From Gemmatimonadales bacterium (GTDB lineage: Bacteria > Gemmatimonadota > Glassbacteria > GWA2-58-10), in contig JAJRTS010000029.1 of assembly GCA_024278175.1 (NCBI GenBank), forward strand, positions 1 to 64,000: a stretch of DNA of 64,000 bases, written 5' to 3'. The notes under the pieces were generated by a model, which made no database searches, was not told where the DNA came from, and saw only the letters and a list, made by a program, of their open reading frames with translations. This document shows, piece after piece, positions 14,556 to 42,413 of this stretch. Made by a program: the position numbers and the translations under genes. Every line of letters starts with the position of its first letter. The stretch's first letter is position 1.

Positions 14556-17126
14556 TTATGGCGCGGTAACTGCCAGGGTGAACGTGACGCTGGCGGCTGC
14601 TCCGCCGATGGTGGTGGTGGCGGTGACGGTGACCACGCCGCCGTTGGCGGTCTCGTCGTTGGGCGTACAGTTTGTCGAGGCCAGGCCATCGGCATCCGTG
14701 AACGTGGATTCAGTCTCCAGCGCGGCGTCGCCCCCCGTGACCGCGAACGTCACCAGTGCGCCCGGAACCGGGTTCAGGTACTGGTCGGATACCAGCACGC
14801 TGAGCGGCAGAGTGTATGCCGTTCCGGCCTTGCTGGTCTGGGTGTTCCCGCCGCCCCTGACCATCTGCGCGGCGGGTCCGGCGCTGACAGTTATCGTGAA
14901 CGTGACCGGTGAGCCGCTGAGCGTCCCGGAGGAGGCCGCCACTTTCATCTCGCCCACTTTGGTACTCACCTGGCTGACATCCACGCTGGCGTTGCCGTAG
15001 GAACTGGTCACCACGGCGGTGGGCGCGGCCAGGGTGGCCGAGCCGCCGGGGGGAATCGCGCTGATAGCGAAGCTGACCCCCGCGCCGGCAACCTGGTTGC
15101 CGCTGGCGTCGACAACATTCACGCCCAGAGCGCTCAGGGAAGCTCCGGCCGTGGCCGTCCGGTCGGTGAGGCCGCTGGCGGCGATAGTGGACGGGGCGCT
15201 GGGCACTGCCGTGGCGCGGAAGGCCACCGTGTCCTGGCTGCCATCGGCGAACACGGCCACCGCGATCACCGTGTTGTTGTCACGCAGCACGGCCAGGTCG
15301 TCGGGGCCGCCGGTGCGCGAACCCAGGGACAGGCGGATCGCCGCCAGCCCGTCGGCATCCGTCAGCGCTTCCAGGCGGCCCGTACCGCCCGGACCCGGAG
15401 AGGCCTGGCTGCTCACCTGGCCGTCACCGCTGGGGCTGAACGACTGGAACAACACCGGGAAGTTGGATATCGGTGCGCCAAGCGTGTCTCCGTCCACACC
15501 GGTGCGGGTGGAATCGAGCACGCGGACCACCAGCGGCAGCGGCAACTGGCTGCCCACGGCGTACTCGCCGTCGTAGCCCTGGTTGTTGCCGTACATGATT
15601 ACCAGCCGGTTGGCCGTGTCCGGGTTGGGCAGGGCCCGGGCCGAGAGGGTCGTTCTCACAGAGGCCCCGTCCTCGCGGGTCACTTCGGCCACCACGGTCA
15701 TATCCAGGTCGGGTCCGGGGCCCATCCTCATGCTGATCCCGGCCTGGCCGCGGGTGTCGGTGGTGATGATGATCGAGTTGGTGACAGCGGGGTCGCGCTC
15801 TTCCTGGGCGCCGATAAAGGGGCTGCCGCCGGTTACGGTGAACTTGACGTCCACTCCTGCCATCGCCTCGCCGGTAGTATCGAGCACTCTGATCACCAGC
15901 GGCTCGGGCAGCAGGGTATTGACCTCGCCGATCTGGCTGCCGCCGCTGACTATCTCGATCGTGTCTGCCATGATCGGGTTAGCGGGGGCCGCGCCCCAGA
16001 CATCGAAGAACGTGCTCACCGGCTGGCCGTCCATCCTGATCACGGTGGCCCGGAGGCGGTTCAGTCCCGCCCTGGTGCCCAGGGTGAAATTGGTCATCGC
16101 CAGCCCTTCGCTATTGGTGGTGCCGGTGCCGCTGGAGAGTCCGGAGCCCATGAAGCCGTTGTTTTCCTCGACCAGGAAAGTCACGATCTGCCCGGGCGAA
16201 CCCTTGCCGAACGTGTCGGTAACAGCCACCACCAGGGGTACGGGGTAAAGCTCGCCCGCCGTGCCGACCAGGCTGTCCTGGGAGGTAACTATCCGGATAT
16301 CCCAGGCGTTCTGCCGTACGTCCGGATCGCGCCGGGACACAAGGCGCCATTTGGCGATACCGACTTTGCCGTTGGGCAGGATGGCGGTTGCCTGGACTTC
16401 CACCGGTCCGGGGTCTAAACCCAGACGGCAGGCGTTGGAGGCCACGCCGAACTGGTTGGTCGGTTTCTCGGCGATATCGAACACGCCGCCGCCTACCGGC
16501 GAGCTGAAAAACACGTCAAGCGCGCTGACTCCCTGACCCAGCGAGTCGAGTATCTGTACGGCGAACGGGATCGGGAACATCCGCCCCACGCTGCCCACGG
16601 TGTCCGCGCCCAGGCTGAAACCGGTCAGGGTATAGCCGCCGGTCGATGGCGGCGGGGCACCTGCGCCGGAGGTGTCCGATCCGGAGACCAGAAAGGCGGT
16701 AAACATCACCGGCGAGCCGGAAAGGCGGCTGCCCGTGGCCCCCGCGGCGGTGGCGGTAACCGCGTAGGCGCTGTCGTTGCCGAGCACCAGATAGGCGCTG
16801 GTGTAACCGGTTGCGCCTGTTATCACTTCGATGCTGCGCTCGTTCACCCCGGAAATGGTGCCGCCGGGACTCGTTACCTCGAATGTCACTTTATGGCTCG
16901 GCACCGGGTTGTCGTCGCTGTCGAGCACCTGGACGGTGAACGGCTGCGCGAGTCTGGTCTGCGGGCTGCCGTACTGGTTGTTGCCGGAAATCATCCTGAT
17001 CTTGTCCGGCCGGGCCAGGCTGCCGGTGGGGATGTTCTCGTTGTCGTTGCAGGTGACCGAGAGCAGCCCGGTCAGCAGCAGCGCGGCCAGCAGTACAACC
17101 GGCCTGCTCTGACGGATGGCTCTCAT
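14556..17126 (-). CDS. Ig-like (Big_1) repeat lipoprotein
   Basis: An 856-residue predicted outer-surface lipoprotein. Its signal peptide ends in the lipobox LLSVTC (Cys about residue 26). The mature part consists of about seven tandem beta-domains of 100-120 residues, each with a pattern like PFTVQVLDSDDNPVPSHKV...FEV...G...TDADGLA, characteristic of bacterial Ig-like domain 1 (invasin/intimin-type). It is the last gene of the pilus operon and overlaps the secretin gene by 4 bases (ATGA type), so it is surely co-translated. It may be an adhesin or a scaffold around the secretin; that is inference. Confidence 0.85.
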   Translation of the reverse strand: MRAIRQSRPVVLLAALLLTGLLSVTCNDNENIPTGSLARPDKIRMISGNNQYGSPQTRLAQPFTVQVLDSDDNPVPSHKVTFEVTSPGGTISGVNERSIEVITGATGYTSAYLVLGNDSAYAVTATAAGATGSRLSGSPVMFTAFLVSGSDTSGAGAPPPSTGGYTLTGFSLGADTVGSVGRMFPIPFAVQILDSLGQGVSALDVFFSSPVGGGVFDIAEKPTNQFGVASNACRLGLDPGPVEVQATAILPNGKVGIAKWRLVSRRDPDVRQNAWDIRIVTSQDSLVGTAGELYPVPLVVAVTDTFGKGSPGQIVTFLVEENNGFMGSGLSSGTGTTNSEGLAMTNFTLGTRAGLNRLRATVIRMDGQPVSTFFDVWGAAPANPIMADTIEIVSGGSQIGEVNTLLPEPLVIRVLDTTGEAMAGVDVKFTVTGGSPFIGAQEERDPAVTNSIIITTDTRGQAGISMRMGPGPDLDMTVVAEVTREDGASVRTTLSARALPNPDTANRLVIMYGNNQGYDGEYAVGSQLPLPLVVRVLDSTRTGVDGDTLGAPISNFPVLFQSFSPSGDGQVSSQASPGPGGTGRLEALTDADGLAAIRLSLGSRTGGPDDLAVLRDNNTVIAVAVFADGSQDTVAFRATAVPSAPSTIAASGLTDRTATAGASLSALGVNVVDASGNQVAGAGVSFAISAIPPGGSATLAAPTAVVTSSYGNASVDVSQVSTKVGEMKVAASSGTLSGSPVTFTITVSAGPAAQMVRGGGNTQTSKAGTAYTLPLSVLVSDQYLNPVPGALVTFAVTGGDAALETESTFTDADGLASTNCTPNDETANGGVVTVTATTTIGGAAASVTFTLAVTAP

Positions 17127-18508
17127 TTTTCACCTCCGTCCCAGTCTGGTTCATCCAGCATCAGGCCGCCGCTCTGCTCACCGGAAGGGATAATCCTGGT
17201 GGTGATGATGATCACCAGCTCTTCTTCCTTGGTAAGCTCCTTCTGGTAGCTGAACAGCCTGCCCAGCAGCGGGATGCTGCGCAGGCCCGGAACGCCGATA
17301 GAGATTTTGCTGTTGTTGACCACTGTCAGCCCGGCGATAACCCCCGTGGCCCCGTCATCGAGGAGCAGCCGTGTGCTGGCCTCCTGGGTGCGGAAGAAGA
17401 CACCGTCGGGGCCGTTGTCGGCATCCGAGTTTTCGGCCAGTAACTGGACCAGCACCTTGTTGTTTTGGGTGATCTGGGGGGTGACCTCCAGCTTTACTCC
17501 GGTCTCGACCATCTGAATGGTGGCCCTCGCGCCAGTACTGGCTCCGCCCAGGGAGCCGTAATCGACCACGCGCAGGGGCGTACGCTGACCCACCAGCACT
17601 TTGGCGGGCAGGTTGTTAAGGGTGGTGATTACCGGGTTGGCCACGGTGCGGGCTTTTTTCTGGTCCTCGAGCATCCGCAGCACGGCGGTGATATTGACCC
17701 CCTTGCGCACGGTGCCCACGGCCAGTTCGGTATGGGGGCTGAGCACGTTGGTCGCGCTGGCCACATCCACGCCGAAACGGGTATCGGTAAGCGGGTTGTT
17801 CTGGTTGGTCGTGCGCCAGTCGATACCCATCTCGCGCAGGGAGCTTTTGTTGACGAATGTCAGCTTGACGCTGATTTCAACCTGGCGGGTCTCGTGGTCC
17901 AGCTCAGCGAGCACCTCGCCTACCTTATCGATGCGGTCGGGGATGTCGATCACCAGCAGGCTGTTGCTTCCGGGGTCGGCCTGCAGCTTGCCGCGATCCG
18001 AGAGCAACGCCGCGACGGTGGGGGCGATCTCTTCGGCTTTCTGGAAATTGAGCCTGAATATCCGGCTCATCAGGTTTTCAAGCTCCTCGTTGGCCCGGAT
18101 GCTTTCAATCGTGTCCACGTTGAGGATCCCGTGGTTCTCGCGCACGGCCAGGCCGTTGTTCTCGAGTACGGAGTACAGGGCCCGGTCCCAGGGCTGGTCG
18201 GCGATCCTGGCGGTGACGCGGCCGGTCACGTTCTTGCTGGCCACGATACTCACGCCGCTGAACTCGCTGAACGCCAGCAGGACGCTACGGATGTCCGCGT
18301 CGTGGAAGTCCACGCTGATATTGCGCGCGGCGCTTTGCAGGCCGGGCATTTGCGCGGCGGCAGGGGCCGGAGGCAGCGCGACCGTAAGCACGGCCGCCAG
18401 CAGGCAGAGTTTAATAGTCCTCAGGAGATCCCTCCCGGGCGTTCTCCGCCTCGCTTTCGCTCTCCCCTCGCCGGCCACCGTTTCAGGCATTTGCAGGAGA
18501 TTTGCCAT
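17123..18508 (-). CDS. pilQ: Type IV pilus secretin PilQ-like
   Basis: A 461-residue secretin with a signal peptide (about residues 30-55, ending APAAAQ). An STN/AMIN-adjacent N-terminal domain (NISVDFHDADIRSVLLAFSEFSGVSIV) follows, then an N0/N1-type domain (NFQKAEEIAPTVAALLSDRGKLQADPGSNSLLVIDIPD). The C-terminal secretin core has VANPVITTLNNLPAKVLVG and the signature VPGLRSIPLLGRLFSYQKELTKEEELVIIITTRII. It lacks the extra AMIN domains of longer PilQ proteins. ATG 18508 is chosen because GGAGGG stands five bases upstream; the gene overlaps pilP by 26 bases. It forms the outer-membrane pore for the pilus. Confidence 0.93.
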   Translation of the reverse strand: MANLLQMPETVAGEGRAKARRRTPGRDLLRTIKLCLLAAVLTVALPPAPAAAQMPGLQSAARNISVDFHDADIRSVLLAFSEFSGVSIVASKNVTGRVTARIADQPWDRALYSVLENNGLAVRENHGILNVDTIESIRANEELENLMSRIFRLNFQKAEEIAPTVAALLSDRGKLQADPGSNSLLVIDIPDRIDKVGEVLAELDHETRQVEISVKLTFVNKSSLREMGIDWRTTNQNNPLTDTRFGVDVASATNVLSPHTELAVGTVRKGVNITAVLRMLEDQKKARTVANPVITTLNNLPAKVLVGQRTPLRVVDYGSLGGASTGARATIQMVETGVKLEVTPQITQNNKVLVQLLAENSDADNGPDGVFFRTQEASTRLLLDDGATGVIAGLTVVNNSKISIGVPGLRSIPLLGRLFSYQKELTKEEELVIIITTRIIPSGEQSGGLMLDEPDWDGGEK

Positions 18509-19004
18509 CGTTTCCCTCCGCAAGAGGTTTCAATTCTATTGTGTAATCACGGACGCGGCCGAATTCGGAGATGCTGAACATCACGTATTTCTTTTCGATC
18601 AGCACCAGTTCGGCCCCGCCTATTCTATCGCCCTCGTGGAGCAGGAAGCTTTCCCCGGTGGTCAGTCCCAGAATGGCGATTCGCGGCCCGTCCGGGGTGT
18701 AGAGCACGCCGGTCAGCAACAGGTCCGAGAGCGAGGGACCCAGGATTTCCCCGCCCGCCTGCCCCAGGGGCAGGTTGAACGGATCGGAACGCCCCGTGCG
18801 GGGATAGCTGAACCGTTCGCGGCCGGCCAGGTAGCTCTCCCCGGCGCTTCCGCTCTCAAGCACCATCGCGCTGTCCACCGCGGCCAGGCCGGAGTCGGCC
18901 CGCGCGGCGGTGGTTTTGTCCGCTTGCGCCTGCTGCGCCAGGGCGAGAGCAGGGAGCAGTAAAGTTATCATCGCCAGAGTCGCCGGCCGGGAGACCATCC
19001 TCAC
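18483..19004 (-). CDS. pilP: PilP-like pilus assembly protein
   Basis: A 173-residue exported protein with the signal segment PATLAMITLLLPALALAQQ, a disordered linker and a C-terminal beta-domain: RSDPFNLP, LLLTGVLYTPDGPRIAILGLTTGESFLLHEGDRIGGAELVLIEKKYVMF. This is the PilP fold that links PilNO to the secretin. The GTG at 19004 overlaps the pilO stop by four bases; an ATG two codons later is an alternative. Although PilP is often a lipoprotein, no lipobox is evident here. Confidence 0.85.
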   Translation of the reverse strand: MRMVSRPATLAMITLLLPALALAQQAQADKTTAARADSGLAAVDSAMVLESGSAGESYLAGRERFSYPRTGRSDPFNLPLGQAGGEILGPSLSDLLLTGVLYTPDGPRIAILGLTTGESFLLHEGDRIGGAELVLIEKKYVMFSISEFGRVRDYTIELKPLAEGNDGKSPANA

Positions 19005-19603
19005 TGTCCTTTCTGCTCACCGGTGCTCTGGGCCGGTGCGGGGATCAGCAGGTAGGTTGTCAGTGTCATTTCCGCGGTCAGGGTCCCGCCGCCGGGAATG
19101 TTATCCCGGGTGTCGCGCACCATGCTCAGGCCGGTGGGCTTGATAATCATGTCCAGGCCGGCCACGTCACTCAGGAAGCGGGCGGTCTGATGGTAGCCGC
19201 CGCGAACTGTCACCTTGAACGGGCGTTCCTGGTAGAGCGGGTGCTGGATCGGCGCCTGGGGCTCGAACAGGGCGAAATCGAGGTTGTTGAGCTCGCCGGT
19301 GCGGGTGACGTTGCGCAGAAGCACGGGCAGATTTTCTTTTTCCGGCAGCAACTGTCTGGCCAACTCCAACTGGCGCTGGCGCTGCTCAAGCTCCAGGCGC
19401 AGGGCCGCCGTGTCGGAAGCGGCCACCAGGGCGCGTGCGTTCTCGACGCTGCTGCTGACTGTGGCCAGTTCCTGCTCCGCCCTGGCCACGGCCTCGTTCT
19501 TGGGCCCCAGGATGTACATCCAGTATCCGTAGCAGCCGCCGGCCAGCACCAACATCACCAGCAGGGCTTTCTGCACTTTGGGATCACCGGTATTGAGCGC
19601 CAT
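19001..19603 (-). CDS. pilO: PilO-like pilus assembly protein
   Basis: A 200-residue protein with one membrane helix (about residues 12-32), a coiled-coil stretch rich in E/Q/R/L (about 36-85) and a ferredoxin-like domain containing GGYHQTARFLSDVAGLDMIIKPTGLSM. This layout is standard for PilO, which dimerises with PilN in the inner membrane. The start GTG-ATG is preceded by GGAGAAGG. It lies between a small lipoprotein gene and pilP. Confidence 0.9.
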   Translation of the reverse strand: MALNTGDPKVQKALLVMLVLAGGCYGYWMYILGPKNEAVARAEQELATVSSSVENARALVAASDTAALRLELEQRQRQLELARQLLPEKENLPVLLRNVTRTGELNNLDFALFEPQAPIQHPLYQERPFKVTVRGGYHQTARFLSDVAGLDMIIKPTGLSMVRDTRDNIPGGGTLTAEMTLTTYLLIPAPAQSTGEQKGQ

Positions 19604-19618
19604 CACAAACCTTCTCCG

Positions 19619-20137
19619 CTATTTAGCTGCCAGCTGGCCGAAGTCAGTCAGGAACACGGGCCAGATATCGTAGCGTTTGCCGCTCTGGAACGTGAAGCCG
19701 CTGCCGAGGTCGAAAAACTTGCTTTCCGGACTGACCATCAGAATCCGCATACTTTCCTCGAGGACCTGAGGTACGGGGGTGAACGGGTCGCCGCCGCCGG
19801 CAGGCTGCTGTGTGCCGCTCTGGCCCGAGCTACCGCCAGTGACAGCGCTGCCGCCGGTTGTGTAACCCAGGGTAAACCGGGCCTCGTAGCGGCCGTTCTG
19901 GTCGGTGTGGACGATAATGTCCGGGATGATAGTGGCGCTGCTGCTCTCCTCGCTTTTTTCGATCACCACGGTCACGTCGGCCACACCCACGCGGACCTCG
20001 GACGACTGGTAGACGTAGCCCGTTACGGTGACCAGGTTACCGGCATTAACGTTGCGCTCGTTGTCGCACGAACCGGCCAGCAGGGGGAGCAGCACGGCCG
20101 CCAGCACCAGCGTTACTCTGCCGATTCTGCCTCTCAT
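19619..20137 (-). CDS. Small lipoprotein inserted in the pilus operon
   Basis: A 172-residue lipoprotein with lipobox LAGSC (Cys about residue 24). A carboxypeptidase-regulatory-like beta-domain (VTVTGYVYQSSEVRVGVADVTVVIE...TDQNGRYEARFTLG) is followed by a glycine/serine-rich linker and a C-terminal segment of unknown fold. GAGGTCAAG precedes the ATG. It sits between pilN and pilO, where pilMNOPQ normally has no gene. The post-lipobox sequence CDNERNVNAGNL resembles CNDNENIPTGSL of the Ig-like lipoprotein at the operon end, hinting at a shared targeting signal. Function unknown. Confidence 0.8.
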   Translation of the reverse strand: MRGRIGRVTLVLAAVLLPLLAGSCDNERNVNAGNLVTVTGYVYQSSEVRVGVADVTVVIEKSEESSSATIIPDIIVHTDQNGRYEARFTLGYTTGGSAVTGGSSGQSGTQQPAGGGDPFTPVPQVLEESMRILMVSPESKFFDLGSGFTFQSGKRYDIWPVFLTDFGQLAAK

Positions 20138-20188
20138 CTTGACCTCATCGGTGTTTGGTTAAAACCGCCGCCGCCGCGTTCGCCCGGC

Positions 20189-20851
20189 TTATCGGGACTG
20201 GGCCACCCGGGCGGTCGTATCCGGCGGCTGGTTAAAAGCCGATGCACATTCGATTACGAAATACTTGGTATCGTAGCCGCCCAGCAGCCGCTCTGTAGAG
20301 CTGATCAACCGTACGTCGGCAAACGTTGCGCTGCGCTCCAGGTTATCGAGCAGCTCACTGAGCAGGATATTGCTCATCGTGTGGCCCTCCACGCGCAGCA
20401 CCAGCTCGGGGAACGGGCTGAGCTCGCTGATCGTATTGAGCCAGGTGTAGCGCGGCAGGGCGGAACTGATTTCATCGAGCGTCCTGGGCCAGAGGAAACG
20501 ATTGCGGTCCACACTGACAATTATTTCCATCCGGTTGACTACATCTGCGGTATGCTCCCTGAGCTCGTCCATGCGCAGGATCACCCGGTTGAGCGTGTTC
20601 AGTTCCACGCGCAGAGAGTCGCGGCGCTCTTTAATGCTGCTCGCGCGGTGGCCGAGCCAGAAGAACGAGCCGGCGACAAACAGCACTGTCAGCGCGGCCA
20701 CGGTCACGGGCAGGGCAACCACCAGGTCGTATTTCCTCGTCGGCAGCGACAGTGAGCGTCCGGTTTTTGCAGCTTTGCCGGGCTTGGCCGCCGGCGCGGC
20801 GCGGCGGGCTTTTTTACGCTTCTCCGGCGGCAGCAGGTTAATCTTGATCAT
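20189..20851 (-). CDS. pilN: PilN-like pilus assembly protein
   Basis: A 220-residue protein starting with the hallmark MIKINLLPPEKRKK, the short cytoplasmic tail that binds PilM. A basic Ala/Lys-rich linker and one membrane helix (about residues 50-68) follow, then a periplasmic coiled coil and fold (SSIKERRDSLRVELNTLNRVILRMDELREHTADVVNRME). It belongs to the minus-strand pil operon, 47 bases after pilM. Confidence 0.92.
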   Translation of the reverse strand: MIKINLLPPEKRKKARRAAPAAKPGKAAKTGRSLSLPTRKYDLVVALPVTVAALTVLFVAGSFFWLGHRASSIKERRDSLRVELNTLNRVILRMDELREHTADVVNRMEIIVSVDRNRFLWPRTLDEISSALPRYTWLNTISELSPFPELVLRVEGHTMSNILLSELLDNLERSATFADVRLISSTERLLGGYDTKYFVIECASAFNQPPDTTARVAQSR

Positions 20852-20898
20852 CGCACCACATGCTCCCCGCGCCGGCGGTTGCCCCCCCGGCGATCAAC

Positions 20899-22011
20899 TC
20901 ATTCAGGCAGGCGAAGCCCGAGGCCGATAGCCAGCATCAGCGTGGCGGCGACTTTTTCGGCGGGCTCGGCCTGGAACAGCTCGTTCTTATAAGATATCTT
21001 GCTCAGCGGGTTGGCGACCGAAGTGGGAATTCCCACCTTGCCGGCGAACTTCGTATCGAGCCCGGGGATGTTGGCGCAGCCGCCACTGAGGTATACGTTG
21101 GTGATCGTGCCGCTTTCCTCTGTACTTTCCAGGAAGGCCGCGGCGCGGTTAACCCCGATCGCTATGTCATCGATAATAGCGTCGACACACGGGGAGATGT
21201 CCACTGTGGAATCCGGGGCGCTGGTTGCGGGTGCGGGCAGGCCGGAACCGGCGGCACTCAGCGGCTCCTCGCCACCGGTGCCATAGAGGGCCATGTAGGC
21301 CTGGTCCTCGTCCACTCCCAACTGGCTTTGGATAATATCGACCAGCTTGCGTCCACCCACCGGCAGGTTGCGGGTCAGGATCGGCAAGCCGTTGCGTACC
21401 AGGCCGAGGTGGGTGCTTTCGTTGCCGAAATGGACGATACAGTGGCAGTTGTCGGGCTGGGGGGTAAAATTGGCTTCGAGGGCGTTGAGCAGGCAGAACG
21501 TGTCCACGTCCAGCAGCAGCACATCGATCCCGGCTTCCTCGAGCAGGCTCATGCGCTCGTCGATCAGATCGCGCTTGGCGGCCACCAGCAGGATATTCAT
21601 CTGGGCGTCGTCGCCCTCGGGGTCGAGCACCTGGTAGTCCATGCTGATTTCATTCAGCGGAAACGGGACCTGCTGCTCGGCCTCCCAGGTGATCGCCTTG
21701 GCCAGCTCCTCGTCGTTCATCCTGTCGGTCCTGATCGTCTTGACAATCACGTCAGCGCCGTTGAGGGCGATATTGACCTGTCTGCCCGCGATCTGGCAGG
21801 TGTCGAACAACATACTGATCGCTTCCAGCACAGCCTGGCGATCCTGGACCTGGCCGCCTACCACGGCGCCCGGCACCAGTTCGGTGATCCCGTAATTGAC
21901 CAGCAGGGGCGATTTGCCGGAATGGTCCATTTCAACCACTTTGATCGAGTGGCTGCCCAGATCGAGGCCCACCACGGAGGACATTCCACGCTTTCCAAAC
22001 CCGAAAACCAT
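20899..22011 (-). CDS. pilM: PilM-like actin-fold ATPase
   Basis: A 370-residue cytoplasmic protein of the FtsA/PilM family. VVGLDLGSHSIKVVEMD is the phosphate-1 motif, and TDRMNDEELAKAITWEAEQQVPFPLNEISMDYQVL is strongly conserved in PilM. DNCHCIVHFGNESTHLGLVRNG and VYLSGGCANIPGLDTKFAGKVGIPT form the second phosphate and adenosine regions. AAGGGAC precedes the ATG. It heads the pil operon and has a strong promoter 46 bases upstream. It binds the PilN N-terminus at the inner membrane. Confidence 0.95.
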   Translation of the reverse strand: MVFGFGKRGMSSVVGLDLGSHSIKVVEMDHSGKSPLLVNYGITELVPGAVVGGQVQDRQAVLEAISMLFDTCQIAGRQVNIALNGADVIVKTIRTDRMNDEELAKAITWEAEQQVPFPLNEISMDYQVLDPEGDDAQMNILLVAAKRDLIDERMSLLEEAGIDVLLLDVDTFCLLNALEANFTPQPDNCHCIVHFGNESTHLGLVRNGLPILTRNLPVGGRKLVDIIQSQLGVDEDQAYMALYGTGGEEPLSAAGSGLPAPATSAPDSTVDISPCVDAIIDDIAIGVNRAAAFLESTEESGTITNVYLSGGCANIPGLDTKFAGKVGIPTSVANPLSKISYKNELFQAEPAEKVAATLMLAIGLGLRLPE

Positions 22012-32009: not shown

Positions 32010-34010
32010 TCAGCTATTGGGGAGAAGCTTCTTCAGCAGGCCCTCGGCCTCCTCCAGATACTGCACGGCCAGCATGTAATTATGCGCCCCCCGGCTCCCA
32101 TCGGCAACGAACACCTGCCTGATTCGCCGGGCTTTTTCAAGGTTGCCGCGTTGCTCGGCGGTTAGCTCCAGGCTCTCGGCCGAGGTTATCAGGCTCTCCA
32201 GCCGGGCCAGCAGAGCGGAGGTTTCCTCTGTCCACTCGGTCAGTATTTCCGCGTAGCCCTCGTCGTGGCAGGTTACGCAAACAGCGGCCTCCGGGAGCAC
32301 TATTTTATCGTTGTCGTCCAGGTGGCACTGGCTGCACTCCAACTCCGCCTCGAACATCACATCCGGCATCGCCGCATCCAGAGCCCTCCCGCTGAGCACG
32401 TCCACCTGTGCTTGATGGCAGCTTTCGCAGGTGGCTCCCTGCTCAAGCGCCTGTTGCTCGTGATGGCAGCTCAGGCAATTCTCGCGCGGCATCACCAGTT
32501 CTCCGTGGCGGCGCATATTGGAGTGACAGTTGCGGCAGGAGAGGCTGTCGATTTTAAGATGCGCTCCGTGGTCGAATTCCAGCCCATCCGAAGTTTCGAT
32601 CTTGTGCCGGTCGATGTCTTCGTGGCAACTGGCGCACTCGCCGGGCACGACCTGGCTGCTCCAGGGGTAGGGAGGCAGGCGGTAGCGCGAGCCGGCCATG
32701 TCCAGCGCTCTGGTCAGGCTGTGACGGGTCTGCTGGAGCAGGCGGTCCGCGTAGGTGATATTATGCACGCTCTTGCCGTATCGGACAAGATTGTAGTTAT
32801 ACCTGGCGTCGTTTAACGCCTGCCGGGCCTGGCGGCCCGCGGCCGATGTGGTGTCGATCCCGCGTAGCTCGCTCTCCACGCTCTCCAGCGAGCTTTCGAT
32901 TATCTTCAGGCGTGTCTCTGTCGAGTCCTTCCAGGCCTCCACCAGGTCGCTGTAACCCGGTCCGTGGCATGGCTCACAGGATTCCCTGCGGGCCACCACG
33001 CTCTCGCCTCCGGCCTCGAACCCCGGTGAGCTCTGGTGGAAGATATGACAGCCCTGGCAGTTGAGGCCGCCGGAGAACATCGGGCTGGGGTGGTCGGGCA
33101 CGCCCCGGCCGCCCTCGCCACGGAAGAGCATCATCTGCACCTGGTGGGAGTCCAGGTGGCAACTGTTGCAGTCGGGCTCAATGTCCTGGCTGCGTGAGAC
33201 GCTTTTGTGCTGAACCTGAAGGTGGCAGCGTTGGCATTCTATCTTGTGGTCGGTGATGTGGATGTTGTGCATTGTCTCGGTATCGTCGTACTGCGCCAGA
33301 TAATCACGTTCAAAATGGCAGTCCTCACAGTTGTCCAGGGGCACGGCGCCATCGCCTACCACCATCTTCCCGTGGCATTTCTGGCACTCGACGCCGCGCT
33401 CGACGATTACGGTATGGTCGTAGCTGACCGGGGTTTCGGCGGTGGCCACCGGGGCATCGTGACACTGGGTGCAACTGGGCGAGGCCTCGGCGCCCAGGCC
33501 CTTGAAATGGCAGAGAAAGCAGGTGCTGGCCGTTACCGTGATATGCTCGCCCTGCACTACCTGGCTGTGGCAACTGGTGCAGCGCAGTTTCTTGCCGCGG
33601 CGCAACTGGTTCAGGTGGGGAGTATGATCGAAAATTATCCCTTCCTTGAACTCGGTTTTACCTTTGAGCAGACGCTGTTCGTGGCAGCCGGAGCGAAGGC
33701 AACTGGCATCGGGGATTTCCGCCCAGGGTTTGCTGCGAAGGTAGCTGCGGGTGGCGTACTTGAAGAGCTGCTCGAGCCCCGCGAGCTTGCCGCGGATCTT
33801 GGAAGCTAACCCCGGCTCGTAGTGGCAGGTGACGCAGTCGACATCCTTGTGGGAGCTATGCTGCCAGGCGCGGTAGAACGGTTCCATGTAGTGGCAGGTG
33901 TTGCAGAACTCGGAGCGGGACGTCCACTCCATGGAGGCGAAAATGAGGACAATCATCCCGGCGAATGCCAGAGCGGCGATTGTGAGTCTTTTTTTTATTT
34001 TGGCGTTCAT
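32010..34010 (-). CDS. NapC-anchored 18-haem cytochrome c
   Basis: A 666-residue protein. An N-terminal membrane anchor (residues 10-27) leads into a NapC/NirT-like start, EFCNTCHYMEPFYRAWQHSSHKDVDCVTCHYEPG. I count 17 CXXCH motifs and one CXXXCH (CLRSGCH, about 104-110), i.e. up to 18 c-type haems. Two helical segments, RYNYNLVRYGKSVHNITYADRLL (in two parts near 405-427) and GAHNYMLAVQYLEEAEGLL at the C-terminus, look like duplicated elements, suggesting the protein arose by tandem fusion. It should sit in the inner membrane with haems in the periplasm and pass electrons from quinol or from the neighbouring b-type subunit. It lies 118 bases downstream of the 11-haem/cyt-b gene. Confidence 0.88.
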   Translation of the reverse strand: MNAKIKKRLTIAALAFAGMIVLIFASMEWTSRSEFCNTCHYMEPFYRAWQHSSHKDVDCVTCHYEPGLASKIRGKLAGLEQLFKYATRSYLRSKPWAEIPDASCLRSGCHEQRLLKGKTEFKEGIIFDHTPHLNQLRRGKKLRCTSCHSQVVQGEHITVTASTCFLCHFKGLGAEASPSCTQCHDAPVATAETPVSYDHTVIVERGVECQKCHGKMVVGDGAVPLDNCEDCHFERDYLAQYDDTETMHNIHITDHKIECQRCHLQVQHKSVSRSQDIEPDCNSCHLDSHQVQMMLFRGEGGRGVPDHPSPMFSGGLNCQGCHIFHQSSPGFEAGGESVVARRESCEPCHGPGYSDLVEAWKDSTETRLKIIESSLESVESELRGIDTTSAAGRQARQALNDARYNYNLVRYGKSVHNITYADRLLQQTRHSLTRALDMAGSRYRLPPYPWSSQVVPGECASCHEDIDRHKIETSDGLEFDHGAHLKIDSLSCRNCHSNMRRHGELVMPRENCLSCHHEQQALEQGATCESCHQAQVDVLSGRALDAAMPDVMFEAELECSQCHLDDNDKIVLPEAAVCVTCHDEGYAEILTEWTEETSALLARLESLITSAESLELTAEQRGNLEKARRIRQVFVADGSRGAHNYMLAVQYLEEAEGLLKKLLPNS

Positions 34011-36240: not shown

Positions 36241-37174
36241 GAGTCTCCCAGTTTGCTGCCTGCCCGGATGAATCAGTCAAGATTCCAGCCGGGAGAATCG
36301 ATGCGGGGAATCTCCCTCGCCCCCCCCTTTTTTCAAAGTGGGAACGTAACATGCCCCTTGGCGGAAAAGCCGGTTCTCTCCCCTTGCGCAAAAGATGGGA
36401 AGGAATGACAGTAATTCCGCGAGTGATTATGATCCCTGGCTGTATTAGGGTGCCACGAACTGCAAAACGGTAGGTAAATATAATACTTCATAATTGAAAC
36501 ACCAGTCTCATTCTGTACTGCGGAGTTTTTAGCGGAAAACTGTTTTCAACGCTCCGAAGCAGCGGAATTAAAATTGGATTAACGAAGTGAAAACGCGCAT
36601 AATATATTGTCCGTGTTACGGTTCACGAACATCTGCAGGCATTAATGCCGAACCAGTTGCCAGAAGCTGGCTGGGCGTATTATGTTTAAAATGATATAAA
36701 ATAGTCAAACTATTTCAGTGGGCAAGATTTTTCACTCAAGTTACTTGTAAACAGCATACTTCTGCCTTTCTTAAGGGGCGTTGGCAACGCCCCGGATGAA
36801 ATGTTTTGCTTGGTTGGCCGCCCGGGGGCAAGGCAAGCTGTTTCTTTTACTGATCTCGCTATTTATGTTATCCCAAACAGTTACATCTTTCCCGCCTGCT
36901 TTTGTAAAGGACAACGGGAAACGGTCCTTGGCAGCCCCACTGCACGTGCTTCCGTTATTCTTCAACATGCTGCTAAAAGAGTTACCCGGATTTTTTGCCT
37001 GCCGCCTGACGCGTGGCACGGGCGGCGACCGTGAAAGTTCGGGGGAGCGCAACCAGTTTGAAAAAATCCTGCCCTCGGCGGGAATATGCAGTCCCGGTCG
37101 GAAACTCAGGCCGGGAGGAAGTCCTGTAAGGATTGTGGATACCATTACAAGTATCGATTGAAGGAAGGTGGTTA
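36241..37174. other. Divergent intergenic region of the redox cluster
   Basis: 930 bases between divergent redox operons. It includes an AT-rich part (36420-36760), a partial repeat-like GTTTTCAACGCTCC near 36541, and repeat copy C at 36775. A plus-strand frame of 126 codons (36781-37161) lies on the repeat and has no supporting features, so it is not called. Regulatory sites are likely but no regulator-binding consensus is recognised. Confidence 0.55.
36775..36975. repeat. Dispersed palindrome-headed repeat, copy C
   Basis: It starts with the palindrome GGGGCGTTGGCAACGCCCC (36775-36793) and continues with GGATGAAATGTTTTGCTTGG, AAACAGTTACATCTTTCCC and CGGGAAACGGTCCTTGGCA. It ends TTCAACATGCTGC, matching copies A and B in block order. 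Confidence 0.6.
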
Positions 37175-37954
37175 ATGGAAACGCTCGGAATGCTGATTGA
37201 CTTTACCGAATGCATCGGGTGCGGAGAGTGCGTCAAGGCATGCCAGCAATTTAACAGCCTGCCGCCCAACCCCGATCCGGAGCACCTTTCGGACCGTAAT
37301 TACACGGTGGTGCTCAGGTACGAAGAGCAGTACTACCGCAAGTTGTGCATGCACTGCCAGGATCCCACCTGCGCCTCGGTCTGTCCTGTTGGTGCGTTTA
37401 CCAAGACCGAGCAAGGGCGGGTGCTCTACAATGCGGACAAGTGCATGGGCTGTCGCTATTGCATGATGGCCTGTCCGTTCGGCGTACCGCGCTATCAGTG
37501 GAGTAAAGCGATCCCGGTGATCAAGAAGTGTGTTTTCTGCATCCACGAGGTCAATGGCGGCAAAGAGACCGCCTGCTCGTGGGTCTGCCCGATGGGCGCT
37601 ACGCGGCTGGGCAGGCGTCATCACCTGCTGGATATAGCCTGGTCAAGGATCAGGCGCCATCCGGACCGGTACGTACCATATGTCTACGGCGAGAACGATG
37701 CTGGCGGGACTTCGGTGCTGCTGCTCTCCGGCGTACCGTTCGAGCAACTTGGTTACCGGATGGACCTGCCCCAGGGTCCGATGCCCCAGTTGACATGGCA
37801 GGTGCTGAGCAAAATCCCCAGTATCGTGCTGACCGGTGGCGTGTTGCTGGGAGGCCTGAGCTGGATTATCAATCGCAGGATTCAGATTGAGACGGGAGAC
37901 TTGAAGGAAAACGAACTGGCGGGCGACAAGGAAAAGGAGGTCGGCGATGAGTAG
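37175..37954 (+). CDS. HybA/DsrO-like ferredoxin with C-terminal anchor
   Basis: A 259-residue iron-sulfur subunit with four Cys clusters (ECIGCGECVKAC, CMHCQDPTCASVC, CMGCRYCMMAC, CVFC...CSWVC), enough for four [4Fe-4S] clusters. It ends with one membrane helix (IPSIVLTGGVLLGGLSWII). Related HybA, HmcB and DsrO subunits usually carry a Tat signal; this one has none, so the clusters may face the cytoplasm. ATG 37175 follows GAAGGAAGGTGG; an upstream in-frame codon at 37133 would add 14 poor residues. The gene overlaps the NrfD-like gene by 8 bases. Confidence 0.9.
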   Translation: METLGMLIDFTECIGCGECVKACQQFNSLPPNPDPEHLSDRNYTVVLRYEEQYYRKLCMHCQDPTCASVCPVGAFTKTEQGRVLYNADKCMGCRYCMMACPFGVPRYQWSKAIPVIKKCVFCIHEVNGGKETACSWVCPMGATRLGRRHHLLDIAWSRIRRHPDRYVPYVYGENDAGGTSVLLLSGVPFEQLGYRMDLPQGPMPQLTWQVLSKIPSIVLTGGVLLGGLSWIINRRIQIETGDLKENELAGDKEKEVGDE

Positions 37955-39101
37955 CGCGAGCGGCGGTTTGAGTTTCGACAGGCCCCGCCTGTGGATGCCG
38001 GTCGGGATGGTTATTTTCCTGCTGGGGCTCGTGCTTACCTTCCAGCGTTTTTATTTCGGGCTGGGCGCGGTCACCAACCTGACCGACCGGCAGCCTTGGG
38101 GGTTGTGGGTCGGTTTCGACGTGCTCTGCGGCGTGGCGCTGGCGGCCGGCGGTTTCGTCCTGACCGGTATTGTTCACCTGCTCAATTTCGAGCGCTACAA
38201 GAGCGTGCTGCGACCCACGGTACTCAGCGCGTTTCTGGGCTACATCCTGGTCAGCGTGGGTCTGCTTTACGACCTGGGCAAGCCGTGGAACATTTGGCAT
38301 GCGATGATCATGTGGAACCCCCACTCGGTGATGTTCGAGGTGGCGTGGTGCGTGATGTTGTATTCCACCGTGCTGGCTCTGGAATTCAGCCCGATCGTGC
38401 TGGAGAAACTGGGACAGGACAAGGCCCTGCGAGTAATGCGGGCGTTCACTCTGCCGCTGGTGATTGCCGGGATCCTGCTCTCCACACTGCACCAGAGCAG
38501 CCTGGGCACCGTGTTCCTGATTGTCCCGGGAAAGCTGCACCCGTTCTGGTACACTAATCTGCTGCCGATACACTTTTTCCTCAGCGCGGTCAGCGTGGGG
38601 TTCGCAATGGTCATCCTGGAGAGTTTCGTCAGCGGCTGGTTGTTCAGGAAGAGCCTGGAAACGCGGGTGATAGCGGATCTGGGGCAGTTCATGGTGGTGG
38701 CGCTGATGCTGTATCTGATCGTGCGCCTACAGGACCTGAACTTCAAGGTGGGACTGTTGAATATTTTCGACGGTTCGATCGAAAGTTGGTTTCTGGTCTC
38801 CGAACTGTCCCTGTTCCTGCTGCCGCTGCTACTGGTGTTTCTTTTCCGTAACAGGATGAAAGCCGGTGTGCTGGCTATATCGGCCGCCTCCACGATGGGA
38901 GCGGTGGTGCTCAACAGACTCAACGTCGGGATCGTGGGCATGGCCCGCAGCGGCGGATTCAGCTACTTCCCGTCATGGCGAGAATTTGCCCTGTCGCTGT
39001 TTTTGGTCACCGGCGGTGTGACAGTATTTATTCTTTGTGTAAAATACCTGCCGATTTTCCCTGAATCAGGGCAGGAAGCGATTTCCGAAAAAGTCGAATA
39101 G
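37947..39101 (+). CDS. NrfD/HybB-like membrane quinone-interacting subunit
   Basis: A 384-residue protein with about ten transmembrane helices. The N-terminal region FDRPRLWMPVGMVIFLLGLVLTFQRFYFGLG, then PWGLWVGFDVLCGVALAAGGFVLTGIVHLL, LYDLGKPWNIWHAMIMWNPHSVMFEVAWCVMLYSTVL and STLHQSSLGTVFLIVPGKLHPFWYTNLLPIHFFLSAV (read in parts) match the HybB/HmcC/NrfD family. These subunits exchange electrons with the quinone pool and need an iron-sulfur partner, here the preceding gene. AAAAGGAGG lies before the ATG within the overlap. Confidence 0.93.
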   Translation: MSSASGGLSFDRPRLWMPVGMVIFLLGLVLTFQRFYFGLGAVTNLTDRQPWGLWVGFDVLCGVALAAGGFVLTGIVHLLNFERYKSVLRPTVLSAFLGYILVSVGLLYDLGKPWNIWHAMIMWNPHSVMFEVAWCVMLYSTVLALEFSPIVLEKLGQDKALRVMRAFTLPLVIAGILLSTLHQSSLGTVFLIVPGKLHPFWYTNLLPIHFFLSAVSVGFAMVILESFVSGWLFRKSLETRVIADLGQFMVVALMLYLIVRLQDLNFKVGLLNIFDGSIESWFLVSELSLFLLPLLLVFLFRNRMKAGVLAISAASTMGAVVLNRLNVGIVGMARSGGFSYFPSWREFALSLFLVTGGVTVFILCVKYLPIFPESGQEAISEKVE

Positions 39102-39575: not shown

Positions 39576-40163
39576 TTATTTCGTCAACATCAGATACAGA
39601 ACCATCGCCAGCGTAAATCCCACCCCCGTCGCCAGCATCGCCCAACTCACCCTGTCACGCTCGCGGGCGGTGGCCCAGATCCAGACTCCGCTGACAGCGA
39701 ACAGGATGCACCCGGCGCTGGCCAGATCGTACATCAGCCCCCAGAGCAGCCAGACAATATTGCCGCGGTAGCCGTGAATCCGGTGGTAGCCAATCATCGT
39801 GCGGCGGAAATCCAATTTGGCCGTTTCAATCTGAACGCTGCGCTTGTCCGCGTTCAGCACGGCTGTCAGGTTGGCGCCGGGACGGAAAAAACGGTAGCGC
39901 ACCCGGCCGTCATCGAGTTTTTGCGGCGGTTGGGGCTGGCCGCCCAGGCTGAAACGGTCCGCGATCCATGCGCCGGTTTCGTCCACGTCCAGCGCGGCGG
40001 GAATGCGCACCTGTTCCACCCTGGTGTTTTTGTCCGGGTCCTTGTCCGGAAACCAGTCGTGTTTGATCAATACGAGACCGGTGAAAAAATACATCAGGAC
40101 GAACGTGAGCAGGCCGAGGCCGGTGTAGAGGTGGATTTTCTGCATCAGTTTTTTCATCTCCAT
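39576..40163 (-). CDS. PepSY-associated TM protein
   Basis: A 195-residue membrane protein with an N-terminal helix (IHLYTGLGLLTFVLMYFFTGLVL), a soluble PepSY-like segment (RVRYRFFRPGANLTAVLNADKRSVQIETAK) and two C-terminal helices. This layout matches PepSY-TM proteins that accompany flavin/ferric reductases and cytochromes. Its ATG overlaps the upstream stop (TGATG), so it is translationally coupled with the next gene. It lies next to the cytochrome cluster, but a direct electron-transfer role is inference. Confidence 0.75.
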   Translation of the reverse strand: MEMKKLMQKIHLYTGLGLLTFVLMYFFTGLVLIKHDWFPDKDPDKNTRVEQVRIPAALDVDETGAWIADRFSLGGQPQPPQKLDDGRVRYRFFRPGANLTAVLNADKRSVQIETAKLDFRRTMIGYHRIHGYRGNIVWLLWGLMYDLASAGCILFAVSGVWIWATARERDRVSWAMLATGVGFTLAMVLYLMLTK

Positions 40164-40753
40164 CACCCCCGTATCCAGGCGAAAATCATCAGCAGCAAGC
40201 TGCCGCCGCTAACTCCGGCCAGCAATAGCCACCCGATAAGAGTCTCATTCCTGCTTCTGCTCCAGAAATAAACACCGCTGCCGCCGGCGAAGAGCACGAA
40301 CAGCACGGAGATATAGGTATAATAGCTCCAGAACTTCGTAAACGGTTTGCCGGGCACAGATCCCAGCGCGTGCAGGCTGTTGAGAACCACAAGCGGTCCC
40401 TGGCGCGCTTCCTCCACGCTGGCGTGGGTGCGTGCGGGGTTGACTCGAACCTTGTACCGTTTGGCCGGGCGGTCGACCTGGAACCGGAAGCTGTTGTCAT
40501 CGCCACGCTTATAGAGCCACCACGGAATCCAGCCATCGAGATCGAGCGCCAGGCGTACGCGCTCTGCCAGCGCACCGTCGTCGGTCGTATCGGCAACGGC
40601 GTCGAGTTGCCGCTCCCAGCTTACCGTGTATTCGCCGGCGTCGATAAAGCTGAAATCGTGGCTGAAGTGCAGGCTGCTGAAGCCGAAGATAATCATGTAG
40701 GGAGCACAGAGCAGCCCCAGCCAGATATGGATTTTCGAGAGAGTTTTTCTCAT
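40163..40753 (-). CDS. PepSY-associated TM protein, first of pair
   Basis: A 196-residue protein with the same build as its partner: N-terminal helix (KIHIWLGLLCAPYMIIFGFSSLHF), a soluble part with SFRFQVDRPAKRYKVRVNPARTHASVE, then HALGSVPGKPFTKFWSYYTYISVLFVLFAGGSGVYFW and a last helix. ATG 40753 is preferred over an in-frame codon 33 bases upstream because GGAG stands close and the helix then begins normally. The two probably form a heterodimer, each supplying half of a larger PepSY-TM unit. Confidence 0.75.
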   Translation of the reverse strand: MRKTLSKIHIWLGLLCAPYMIIFGFSSLHFSHDFSFIDAGEYTVSWERQLDAVADTTDDGALAERVRLALDLDGWIPWWLYKRGDDNSFRFQVDRPAKRYKVRVNPARTHASVEEARQGPLVVLNSLHALGSVPGKPFTKFWSYYTYISVLFVLFAGGSGVYFWSRSRNETLIGWLLLAGVSGGSLLLMIFAWIRG

Positions 40754-40778
40754 GCACGCTCCGGGGTTTAAGTGACCA

Positions 40779-42413
40779 TCAATCAATTCTGGTAATTAAC
40801 GCAGCCAGGTCCTCGGTAAATTCCCGCGATTCGAACACCAGGGCGTTACCCCTGCTCTGGATTGTTTCGGTATGGACCCATTCGCCGGAGGATGGGTCGT
40901 ACCAGCGCACCTCGAACGTGCCGGGCCAGCTCCAGAGGTAAATGCCGCTACGGGTGGCGCTGTCGTAGGTAGCGTAATGGTGAAGGTACAGTACGCTGGT
41001 GTTGCCGTTTGACAGAGCGTAACGCGCCACGCCATCGCCCTGGTTGTAGCCGCTCATCGCGGGTCTCATGTCCGCGGGAAGGTCTTTAGTGAAGGTATGG
41101 AAGTTACGGAAGTAGCTCCGTGCCTCCCGGCCCAGGTACGCATTCGCGTTGCCGGCGTCCGTGCGGGGCAGCGTGACTATTCCGCCCATGCTCCAGAACG
41201 TTACTGCGCTCTCGTGCATGAAAGAGATCCAGACAGCCACACGCCACTTGTCCGGGTCGCGGTTGGAAAGCGTGCCCTTGTTGCCGAACTCGGTAAACAG
41301 GACGGGTTTGCCCCAGCTTTTAAGGCGGGCGAACTGGCGTCCCAGAATAAAACCCGTTTCGTTGGCCGGGACCCGGACGTAAAGGTGTGGCGTAACCAGA
41401 TCGCACCACCCGGCGTAGGGGCGTTCATAGTTGGTGGTCATCAGGTGAGCGTAAGGATCGCGCTCACGCACGAAACCGGCAACCTCTTCCAGCCACTCGT
41501 CGGGTGTGTAAACGTCCTCGTTGAAAAACTCCCAGATATCCGTATAAACGGCGTAACGGGCAATAATGTAGCGCAGGTAGTGTTTTATCGCGGCCATCGA
41601 CTCCCGGTTGGAGCGGTCTTTCCAGCCCTCCATGGTCCTGTTGGTGCCGAATACGGTGGAGTCCTCCGCCCAGAGGCTCATGTCCTGGAACGGGATCAGG
41701 ATCGTGGCGAACCCGCGCTGGCCCAGCAGACGGTATGTTTCGTCCAGCAGAGTGCAGGCCTCGAGATTGTAGCGGTAGAGGCCCAGCGAGTCAGTCATGA
41801 TCTCGCGGGCGCAGCCCTTGCGCGTGCCCGTGCCCAACTGGATCCGGAACAGGTTGGCCGCTCCCTGCATCTCGTCCAGGTACCGGTCCATCGGCAGGGT
41901 GCGCCAGGGTCCCTCTGCCCGCAGCGGCCCGTCCAGGCCGGCCCCGGCCGCGCCGCAGGGCTGGATGCCCACGGCGTAGAACGGGCTGCCGTCCTCGAAA
42001 GCCAGCCTGTACGGGTTATCCTGGTTGACCTGAAGAAACCCGCGGGAGCGCAACGGGTCCTCGCCATCGCACCGGATTCCCACCCGGTTGTAGGCCACTG
42101 TCCGGCAATCGCGCTTCAGGCGCAGCTCGGCTGTCCAGAGACCCTCGGCATCCGGAGAGAAACGGAAACGCCAGGTGGAGTCGCCGTCGTAGAACCCGTC
42201 CACATGGGAGCGGCGGCCCGAGCCGGGATGGCTGAACGTGGCGGTGGCCTCGATATCGGCAAAGGGATTGCTAAGCGGAGCCGAGTAGTGCAGCGCCAGT
42301 TCGGCCACCCCGTTGCGGCCCACGCCAAGCTCAACCGGCAGTGAGTCGAACCCGCAGGAAAGGGCCAGGCAGAGCGGGAGTATCAGCACCAAAAGCCGGG
42401 ACAGGCTGGTCAT
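40779..42413 (-). CDS. DUF5060 glycoside-hydrolase-like lipoprotein
   Basis: A 544-residue lipoprotein (lipobox LALSC, Cys about residue 20). Residues 25-110 form a DUF5060 beta-domain (ATFSHPGSGRRSHVDGFYDGDSTWRFRFSPDAEGLW). A GH5/GH-A clan-like TIM barrel follows with NLFRIQLG, WEFFNEDVYTPDEW (likely acid/base Glu after Asn) and KPVLFTEFGNKG (likely nucleophile Glu). A C-terminal beta-domain has WSWPGTFEVRWYDPSSGEWV. It is a probable outer-membrane-anchored glycosidase acting on plant or algal polysaccharides; substrate unknown. GAGG precedes the ATG. Confidence 0.85.
   Translation of the reverse strand: MTSLSRLLVLILPLCLALSCGFDSLPVELGVGRNGVAELALHYSAPLSNPFADIEATATFSHPGSGRRSHVDGFYDGDSTWRFRFSPDAEGLWTAELRLKRDCRTVAYNRVGIRCDGEDPLRSRGFLQVNQDNPYRLAFEDGSPFYAVGIQPCGAAGAGLDGPLRAEGPWRTLPMDRYLDEMQGAANLFRIQLGTGTRKGCAREIMTDSLGLYRYNLEACTLLDETYRLLGQRGFATILIPFQDMSLWAEDSTVFGTNRTMEGWKDRSNRESMAAIKHYLRYIIARYAVYTDIWEFFNEDVYTPDEWLEEVAGFVRERDPYAHLMTTNYERPYAGWCDLVTPHLYVRVPANETGFILGRQFARLKSWGKPVLFTEFGNKGTLSNRDPDKWRVAVWISFMHESAVTFWSMGGIVTLPRTDAGNANAYLGREARSYFRNFHTFTKDLPADMRPAMSGYNQGDGVARYALSNGNTSVLYLHHYATYDSATRSGIYLWSWPGTFEVRWYDPSSGEWVHTETIQSRGNALVFESREFTEDLAALITRID

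Follow-up and report, generated by a model that had tools for sequence, protein, structure and literature searches.

A single uninterrupted open reading frame in the window (the whole 64,000-nucleotide stretch of DNA that was analysed) encodes a 666-residue protein with 18 haem sites, which is probably an NrfH-type anchor extended into an inner-membrane electron wire between the quinone pool and periplasmic or outer carriers. According to this proposal, a quinol-dehydrogenase anchor of the NrfH/NapC type, with one transmembrane (TM) helix, a CXXCHXM motif at haem 1 and a CX4CH motif at haem 3, would hold the protein at the inner membrane, and the same chain would continue with c7/c3-like haem clusters and two bundle modules of the OcwA/MccA/NrfA type. 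Haem 1 would be the entry point, receiving electrons either from menaquinol or from the CbcL-like and HmcBC-like membrane complexes encoded nearby, and the haems would relay them to carriers in the periplasm or outer membrane; the flow may also run the opposite way. The computed modules, motifs, conservation and gene neighbourhood are presented in Table 1 and below, and from them we infer haem ligation, the direction of electron flow, the partners and the physiological role.

Table 1. Features of the 18-haem cytochrome gene and of its neighbours (positions in the window)
Feature	Position	Strand	Basis
18-haem NrfH/NapC-anchored cytochrome, 666 aa	32010..34010	-	ORF, motif count, Pfam/NCBIfam
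One TM helix and NrfH/NapC-like haems 1-3, aa 1-118; haem 1 CXXCHXM (Met42)	33657..34010	-	
CX4CH haem site 3, CLRSGCH, aa 104-110	33681..33701	-	motif; 33/33 rows
c7-like haems 4-6, aa 119-190	33441..33656	-	hhalign vs aa 466-536; motif-rich
c3/c7-like haems 7-10, aa 191-292	33135..33440	-	PF14537, best stretch aa 204-285
Unit 1: haems 11-12 and three-helix bundle, VHN (His416), invariant Met311, aa 295-442	32685..33128	-	
Haem 13 and c7-like haems 14-16, aa 455-536	32403..32648	-	A3 profile matches c7-type cytochromes
Unit 2: haems 17-18 and three-helix bundle, AHN (His643), Met552, aa 541-664	32019..32390	-	
11-haem cytochrome with cytochrome b561-type membrane part, CbcL/MtrH/MtoC-like, 703 aa	34129..36240	-	PF01292, c7/c3 families
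HmcB/HybA-like 4Fe-4S protein, divergent operon	37172..37954 (longest ORF from 37133)	+	PF13247
NrfD-family membrane subunit, HmcC-like	37947..39101	+	PF03916
Tetrahaem c3/c7-like cytochrome, 122 aa, one hydrophobic segment	39136..39504	+	4 CXXCH, one TM (hydropathy)

Haem sites and the NrfH/NapC-like anchor

The 18 sites comprise 17 CXXCH motifs and one CX4CH motif, in agreement with the number given in a preliminary description of the sequence, and all 36 cysteines of the protein fall within them. In 5000 residue shuffles of the protein, CXXCH arose with a mean of 0.11 and a maximum of 2 and CX4CH with a mean of 0.10. A motif scan of the protein found no CXXCK; every CXXC is directly followed by histidine. 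Along the chain, haems 1-3 are followed by the c7/c3-like haems 4-10, a dihaem with a bundle (haems 11-12), haem 13, the c7-like haems 14-16 and a second dihaem with a bundle (haems 17-18). Pfam matches of the protein to MtrC domain II/IV and to c3/c7 families were set aside as motif-driven. The full-length AlphaFold2 model has a mean pLDDT of 62.4 and a pTM of 0.35, and the pLDDT of most haem regions is under 50 or barely over it. Because this model is weak, we only infer the haem path and the pairing of ligands with haems.

The third site, CLRSGCH, had been described as CXXXCH with three residues between the cysteines. This was a miscount, as leucine, arginine, serine and glycine make four, and a comparison with the CX3CH of ImcH was dropped because the motif is CX4CH. 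The site had also been suspected of lacking haem, and a lack of conservation in homologues had been named as an outcome that would contradict the description; it is present in all 33 aligned family members, which indirectly argues that haem is bound. Since it is kept in every row, like the other sites among the first 12, site 3 is very likely functional, as judged by conservation. Two genes were found in a PF01578 search of the genome, which is 97% complete: the first scores 218 bits against TIGR03144 CcsB (cut-off, 187.6) and has a partly visible ResB gene alongside, and the second scores 124.6 bits, below the cut-off. The dedicated haem lyase that had been suggested for site 3 is therefore not indicated, since CX4CH is known in cytochrome c3, where it is reported to occur twice (PMC10454114), and no second complete lyase set was seen in the PF01578 search of this genome. 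Two paralogous NapC-type proteins encoded elsewhere in this genome carry CXXCH only, so the CX4CH motif marks the family of the 18-haem protein rather than NapC proteins generally. In two further loci (L010 and L013, from genomes G037 and G042), large open frames of 938-945 aa match the protein from its residue 96-97 onward; their N-terminal part is long and different, and it is followed by a CX4CH close to the aligned position.

The similarity of the N-terminus to NapC/NirT proteins, noted in the preliminary description, was borne out by Pfam PF03264, which matches aa 11-98 with 31.2 bits (cut-off, 24.1). The best NCBIfam match is NrfH (TIGR03153, aa 16-151) at 58.2 bits, below the equivalog cut-off of 134.2. 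The NrfH structure 2j7a_C matches the anchor by sequence (E 7.8e-6), and Foldseek returns it as a weak row (E 0.056). Hydropathy places one TM segment in the protein, and the AlphaFold2 model has a helix at aa 3-30. The anchor thus resembles NrfH, NapC and CymA in its single N-terminal helix, its CXXCHXM haem 1 and the sequence around the first haems, but those proteins hold 4-5 haems instead of 18, and the protein studied here differs further in its CX4CH haem 3, in the glutamine at the equivalent of Asp89 and in a score far under the NrfH equivalog cut-off.

The residues of the NrfH quinol site are partly retained. Met42 of the CXXCHXM motif is kept in 33 of 33 aligned rows, and Lys75, which aligns with NrfH Lys82, described as a quinol-site residue (D. 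vulgaris numbering), is kept in 32. The position of NrfH Asp89 is occupied by Gln81 in one pairwise alignment, in which a shifted acid is possible; across the rows, this position holds glutamine in 27, methionine in five and serine in one. Both Met49 and Asp89 of NrfH are called essential for menaquinol oxidation (PMC10654088). As far as the alignments indicate, the retention of Met42 and Lys75 would speak for direct quinol oxidation by the 18-haem protein, and the apparent replacement of Asp89 by glutamine would be a real point against it.

Repeated bundle modules and candidate haem ligands

Two helical segments with VHN and AHN motifs had been noted in the middle and at the end of the protein, and both are evident as three-helix segments from the sequence as well as from the AlphaFold2 model, with VHN at aa 415-417 and AHN at aa 642-644. 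Alignment of aa 300-442 (32 rows) with aa 541-664 (six rows) by hhalign gave a probability of 99.6 and an E value of 1.4e-23. When only the cysteine-free helices were compared (351-442 versus 584-664), the probability was still 96.9 (E 1.5e-10). Their score of 54.8 was not reached in any of 100 column shuffles, the best of which scored 17.8. The two halves are thus similar, where an absence of similarity had been named as the outcome that would contradict a duplication. In addition, blastp of aa 1-450 against aa 451-666 yielded E 4e-15, although this value is motif-driven, as is the match between the c7-like haem groups 4-6 and 14-16 (aa 118-190 versus 466-536; hhalign probability 97.7, E 1.6e-12), such groups being common. 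Haems 7-10 and the anchor are without a counterpart in the second half, and the repeat is one of modules, namely a c7-like trihaem and a dihaem with a three-helix bundle. The suggestion of two fused cytochrome units therefore holds for the modules but not for two equal nine-haem cytochromes.

The obtained profiles for units 1 and 2 (A2 and A3, respectively) both match the same stretch of OcwA in hmmsearch against solved structures, with E values of 6.7e-14 and 1.3e-15. Weaker profile matches of the modules were to the Carboxydothermus undecahaem cytochrome (6qvm) and MccA, and the unit 2 profile reached NrfA (1oah) with E 0.0023; the A3 profile also matches c7-type cytochromes such as 3ov0, 3ouq and PpcA. 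In the full model, unit 2 superimposes on OcwA with Z 13.9 (135 aligned residues, 2.1 A), with MccA next, and the best Foldseek match of the full model is OcwA (E 9.7e-4). A model of unit 1 by itself (mean pLDDT 64.8, pTM 0.59) aligns with OcwA at Z 10.7 (136 residues, 3.0 A) and with MccA likewise at Z 10.7, values in a range, below about 13, that may reflect a mere common arrangement of helical bundles. The first 17 rows of the unit 1 realignment all belong to the OcwA/MccA/NrfA superfamily. Foldseek with the unit 1 model returned nothing at E <= 0.001 (best, NrfA 2j7a_D at 0.016), and the assignment of unit 1 hence rests on the sequence profile and the realignment. The structural matches are credible because they agree with the sequence profiles, and both units appear to match the C-terminal dihaem and three-helix bundle of the OcwA/MccA/NrfA superfamily. 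The C-terminal bundle of OcwA has itself been described as reminiscent of NrfA, HAO and MccA (PMC6703420).

Like OcwA from Thermincola (PDB 6I5B) and like NrfA, MccA and the octahaem reductases, the protein combines a dihaem with a three-helix bundle, a GVHN-like motif and an aligned methionine, and it does so twice. This kinship raises the alternative that the protein is a one-chain reductase of the NrfHA or OcwA kind, in which the NrfH part would feed a catalytic haem of the NrfA superfamily acting on a small nitrogen or sulfur substrate. NrfH pairs with NrfA in PDB 2j7a, both repeat units are modules of that superfamily, and OcwA is reported to reduce nitrite slowly (PMC6703420). However, the resemblance covers the C-terminal dihaem and bundle and does not demonstrably extend to an active-site haem, and the catalytic CXXCK haem of the NrfA/OcwA/MccA superfamily is without a counterpart in the 18-haem protein. 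OcwA, moreover, is described as a nine-haem cell-surface protein with two open haems (PMC6703420), whereas the protein here would be membrane-anchored, with two bundles and no open haem predicted from its sequence.

The candidate haem ligands argue in the same direction. For haems 1-12, exactly 12 invariant candidates lie outside the motifs, namely Met42, Met311 and the ten histidines 54, 129, 132, 156, 199, 248, 251, 268, 289 and 416 (the last in 32 of 33 rows and masked in the remaining one); His255, found in 28 of 33 rows, is an extra, variable candidate. For haems 13-18, there are six candidates, His481, His484, His502, His517, His643 and Met552, each present in all six 18-site forms. The motifs of haems 11 and 17 begin seven residues after Met311 and Met552, respectively, and OcwA carries a methionine at the aligned place. 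Haem 9 of OcwA is reported to be His/Met-ligated (PMC6703420), and the aligned methionine is presumably its ligand. All 18 haems could therefore have a sixth ligand. Because these candidates would suffice for every haem, under a pairing that is itself putative, and no CXXCK is present, no open haem is predicted, suggesting a conduit rather than a reductase; we regard the latter as quite unlikely. With a candidate sixth ligand for each of the 18 haems, a long electron wire is the most likely reading. Only tentatively do we suggest that this wire is a self-contained conduit, in which one polypeptide would collect electrons from the quinone pool and pass them along its 18 haems over a large part of the periplasm or its full width. 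It would replace the usual combination of a small quinol dehydrogenase with soluble shuttles, the NrfA-type bundles serving as struts and not as catalytic parts.

Conservation and gene neighbourhood

The alignment comprises 33 rows, the window's protein and 32 relatives. Sites 1-12, CX4CH included, are present in every row, and sites 13-18 in 29-31 rows. The unit 2 profile finds the central module in all 33 rows (only partly in L020 and L021) and the terminal module in six, and the complete 18-site form with the second bundle is likewise confined to six rows, the window's included. Another 24 rows form a separate group. In 22 of them, 4-8 additional CXXCH take the place of the second bundle in the tail; of the other two, one ends in a short tail containing two CXXCH and one is truncated at a contig end. 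Nineteen of the 24 total 22 sites. Three rows (L018, L020 and L021) are shorter or masked. A sample of 395 genomes from the phylum of the window contained 29 with a match at E <= 1e-30, and seven loci lie in named genomes assigned to Ca. Glassbacteria, the FCB group, Ignavibacteriales, Neomarinimicrobiota (two), a 'Bacillota' MAG and a Zixibacteria MAG.

The restriction of the terminal bundle to six rows, with different haem-rich tails in most of the others, would fit a fusion that arose recently or by accident, or an error of assembly, with the NapC part alone being functional. Such an origin is very improbable and is already contradicted by conservation, since haems 1-12 are kept in 33 of 33 rows, with MAGs of several phyla among them, and five other genomes encode the 18-site form with 38-70% identity.

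The gene next to that of the 18-haem protein encodes a CbcL/MtrH/MtoC-like protein with about seven TM segments by hydropathy and 11 motifs, in a family for which 3 to 23 haem motifs are reported (PMC6295460). Out of 33 loci, 27 distinct ones were examined for a relative of its membrane part; one lies no more than 6 kb away in 17 of them and at 8.5 kb in one, and a CbcL-type cytochrome b gene was not seen in nine of the 27, some of them on short contigs and three with 20 kb in view. This membrane part was found as a single copy in the genome at E <= 1e-5, so its pairing with the 18-haem gene here is unlikely to be due to chance, and the CbcL-like protein is a likely partner of the 18-haem chain, not a homologue of the whole chain. 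Separately, five loci (L052, L053, L055, L056 and L061) contain a giant 19-haem gene (935-966 aa, about 5-6 TM segments) that matches the CbcL-like protein and is located near a 22-site or 25-site relative.

The divergent operon encodes proteins that score 243 bits against NCBIfam HmcB (cut-off, 420) and 313 bits against HmcC (cut-off, 550), both below, followed by a tetrahaem cytochrome that is also below the cut-offs for PF14522 (22.3 versus 24.8 bits) and NCBIfam TmcA (38.8 versus 114 bits). Three candidate quinone-linked modules, as classified by sequence, sit together at the locus. This arrangement bears on another explanation, in which the 18-haem protein itself would not react with quinone. 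That step would fall to the CbcL-like cytochrome b or the HmcBC-like complex, and the 18-haem protein, tethered to the membrane, would act as an acceptor wire or would store electrons. In its favour are the glutamine at the place of the NrfH quinol-site acid, a residue called essential (PMC10654088), the proximity of CbcL-like genes in the 17 loci and the divergent position of the HmcBC-like operon. However, the full retention of CXXCHXM and the near-complete retention of the quinol-site lysine would be odd for a mere tether, and we consider this explanation unlikely, though less so than the reductase. Against the wire itself count the weak model, the replacement of Asp89 by glutamine, the nine of 27 loci without a cytochrome b, the second bundle in six of 33 rows and the lack of an MtrB/PioB porin, no member of that family having been found in this genome.

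Several other genes were observed in the window and elsewhere in the genome. Two small adjoining PepSY_TM-like membrane proteins are encoded beside the haem cluster (39576-40786, minus strand), the second just below the Pfam cut-off, and genes for a secretin, PilM and a Big_1-domain protein (14556-22011, minus strand) apparently form a type IV pilus or secretion operon. On contig C59 of the same genome, a 526-aa frame (L003:454-2031) carries an unusual fusion of a NapC/NirT tetrahaem cytochrome (PF03264, 2e-30) to an FGE-sulfatase/SUMF1-type domain (PF03781, 5e-38). Contigs C45 and C51 encode eight-motif Multi-haem_cyto cytochromes (PF13447; L072:1150-2652 and L075:1039-2583), which look HAO-like.

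Relation to known systems and significance

ImcH of Geobacter shares with the 18-haem protein NapC-like haems that are extended by further haems, as well as a quinone-linked role. In contrast to the one TM segment and 18 sites found here, with no CX3CH, ImcH is described as having three TM segments (one in two homologues), an atypical CX3CH beside the membrane domain and seven haems (PMC6295460). The periplasmic PCC3 cytochromes of Gallionellaceae, compared by their description, are likewise long many-haem proteins (21-27 haems) proposed to span the periplasm, but they are part of a predicted porin complex, and the available text on them mentions no NapC anchor (PMC10734462). The idea of a periplasm-spanning many-haem cytochrome is therefore not new, having been proposed before for PCC3. 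A NapC/NrfH anchor and OcwA-type modules on one chain were not found described among the titles and abstract starts of the open-access papers that were searched.

If the electron-wire reading is correct, a small quinol dehydrogenase of the NrfH type can be extended to form a long wire, and the NrfA/OcwA bundle, so far familiar from reductases, has a further use as a repeating element in a conduit for electrons. Relatives are encoded in MAGs from several groups that have received little study, among them Glassbacteria, Neomarinimicrobiota, Ignavibacteriales and Zixibacteria, and the combination of a NapC start, a CX4CH third site and a VHN bundle would provide a marker for respiration in uncultured bacteria.
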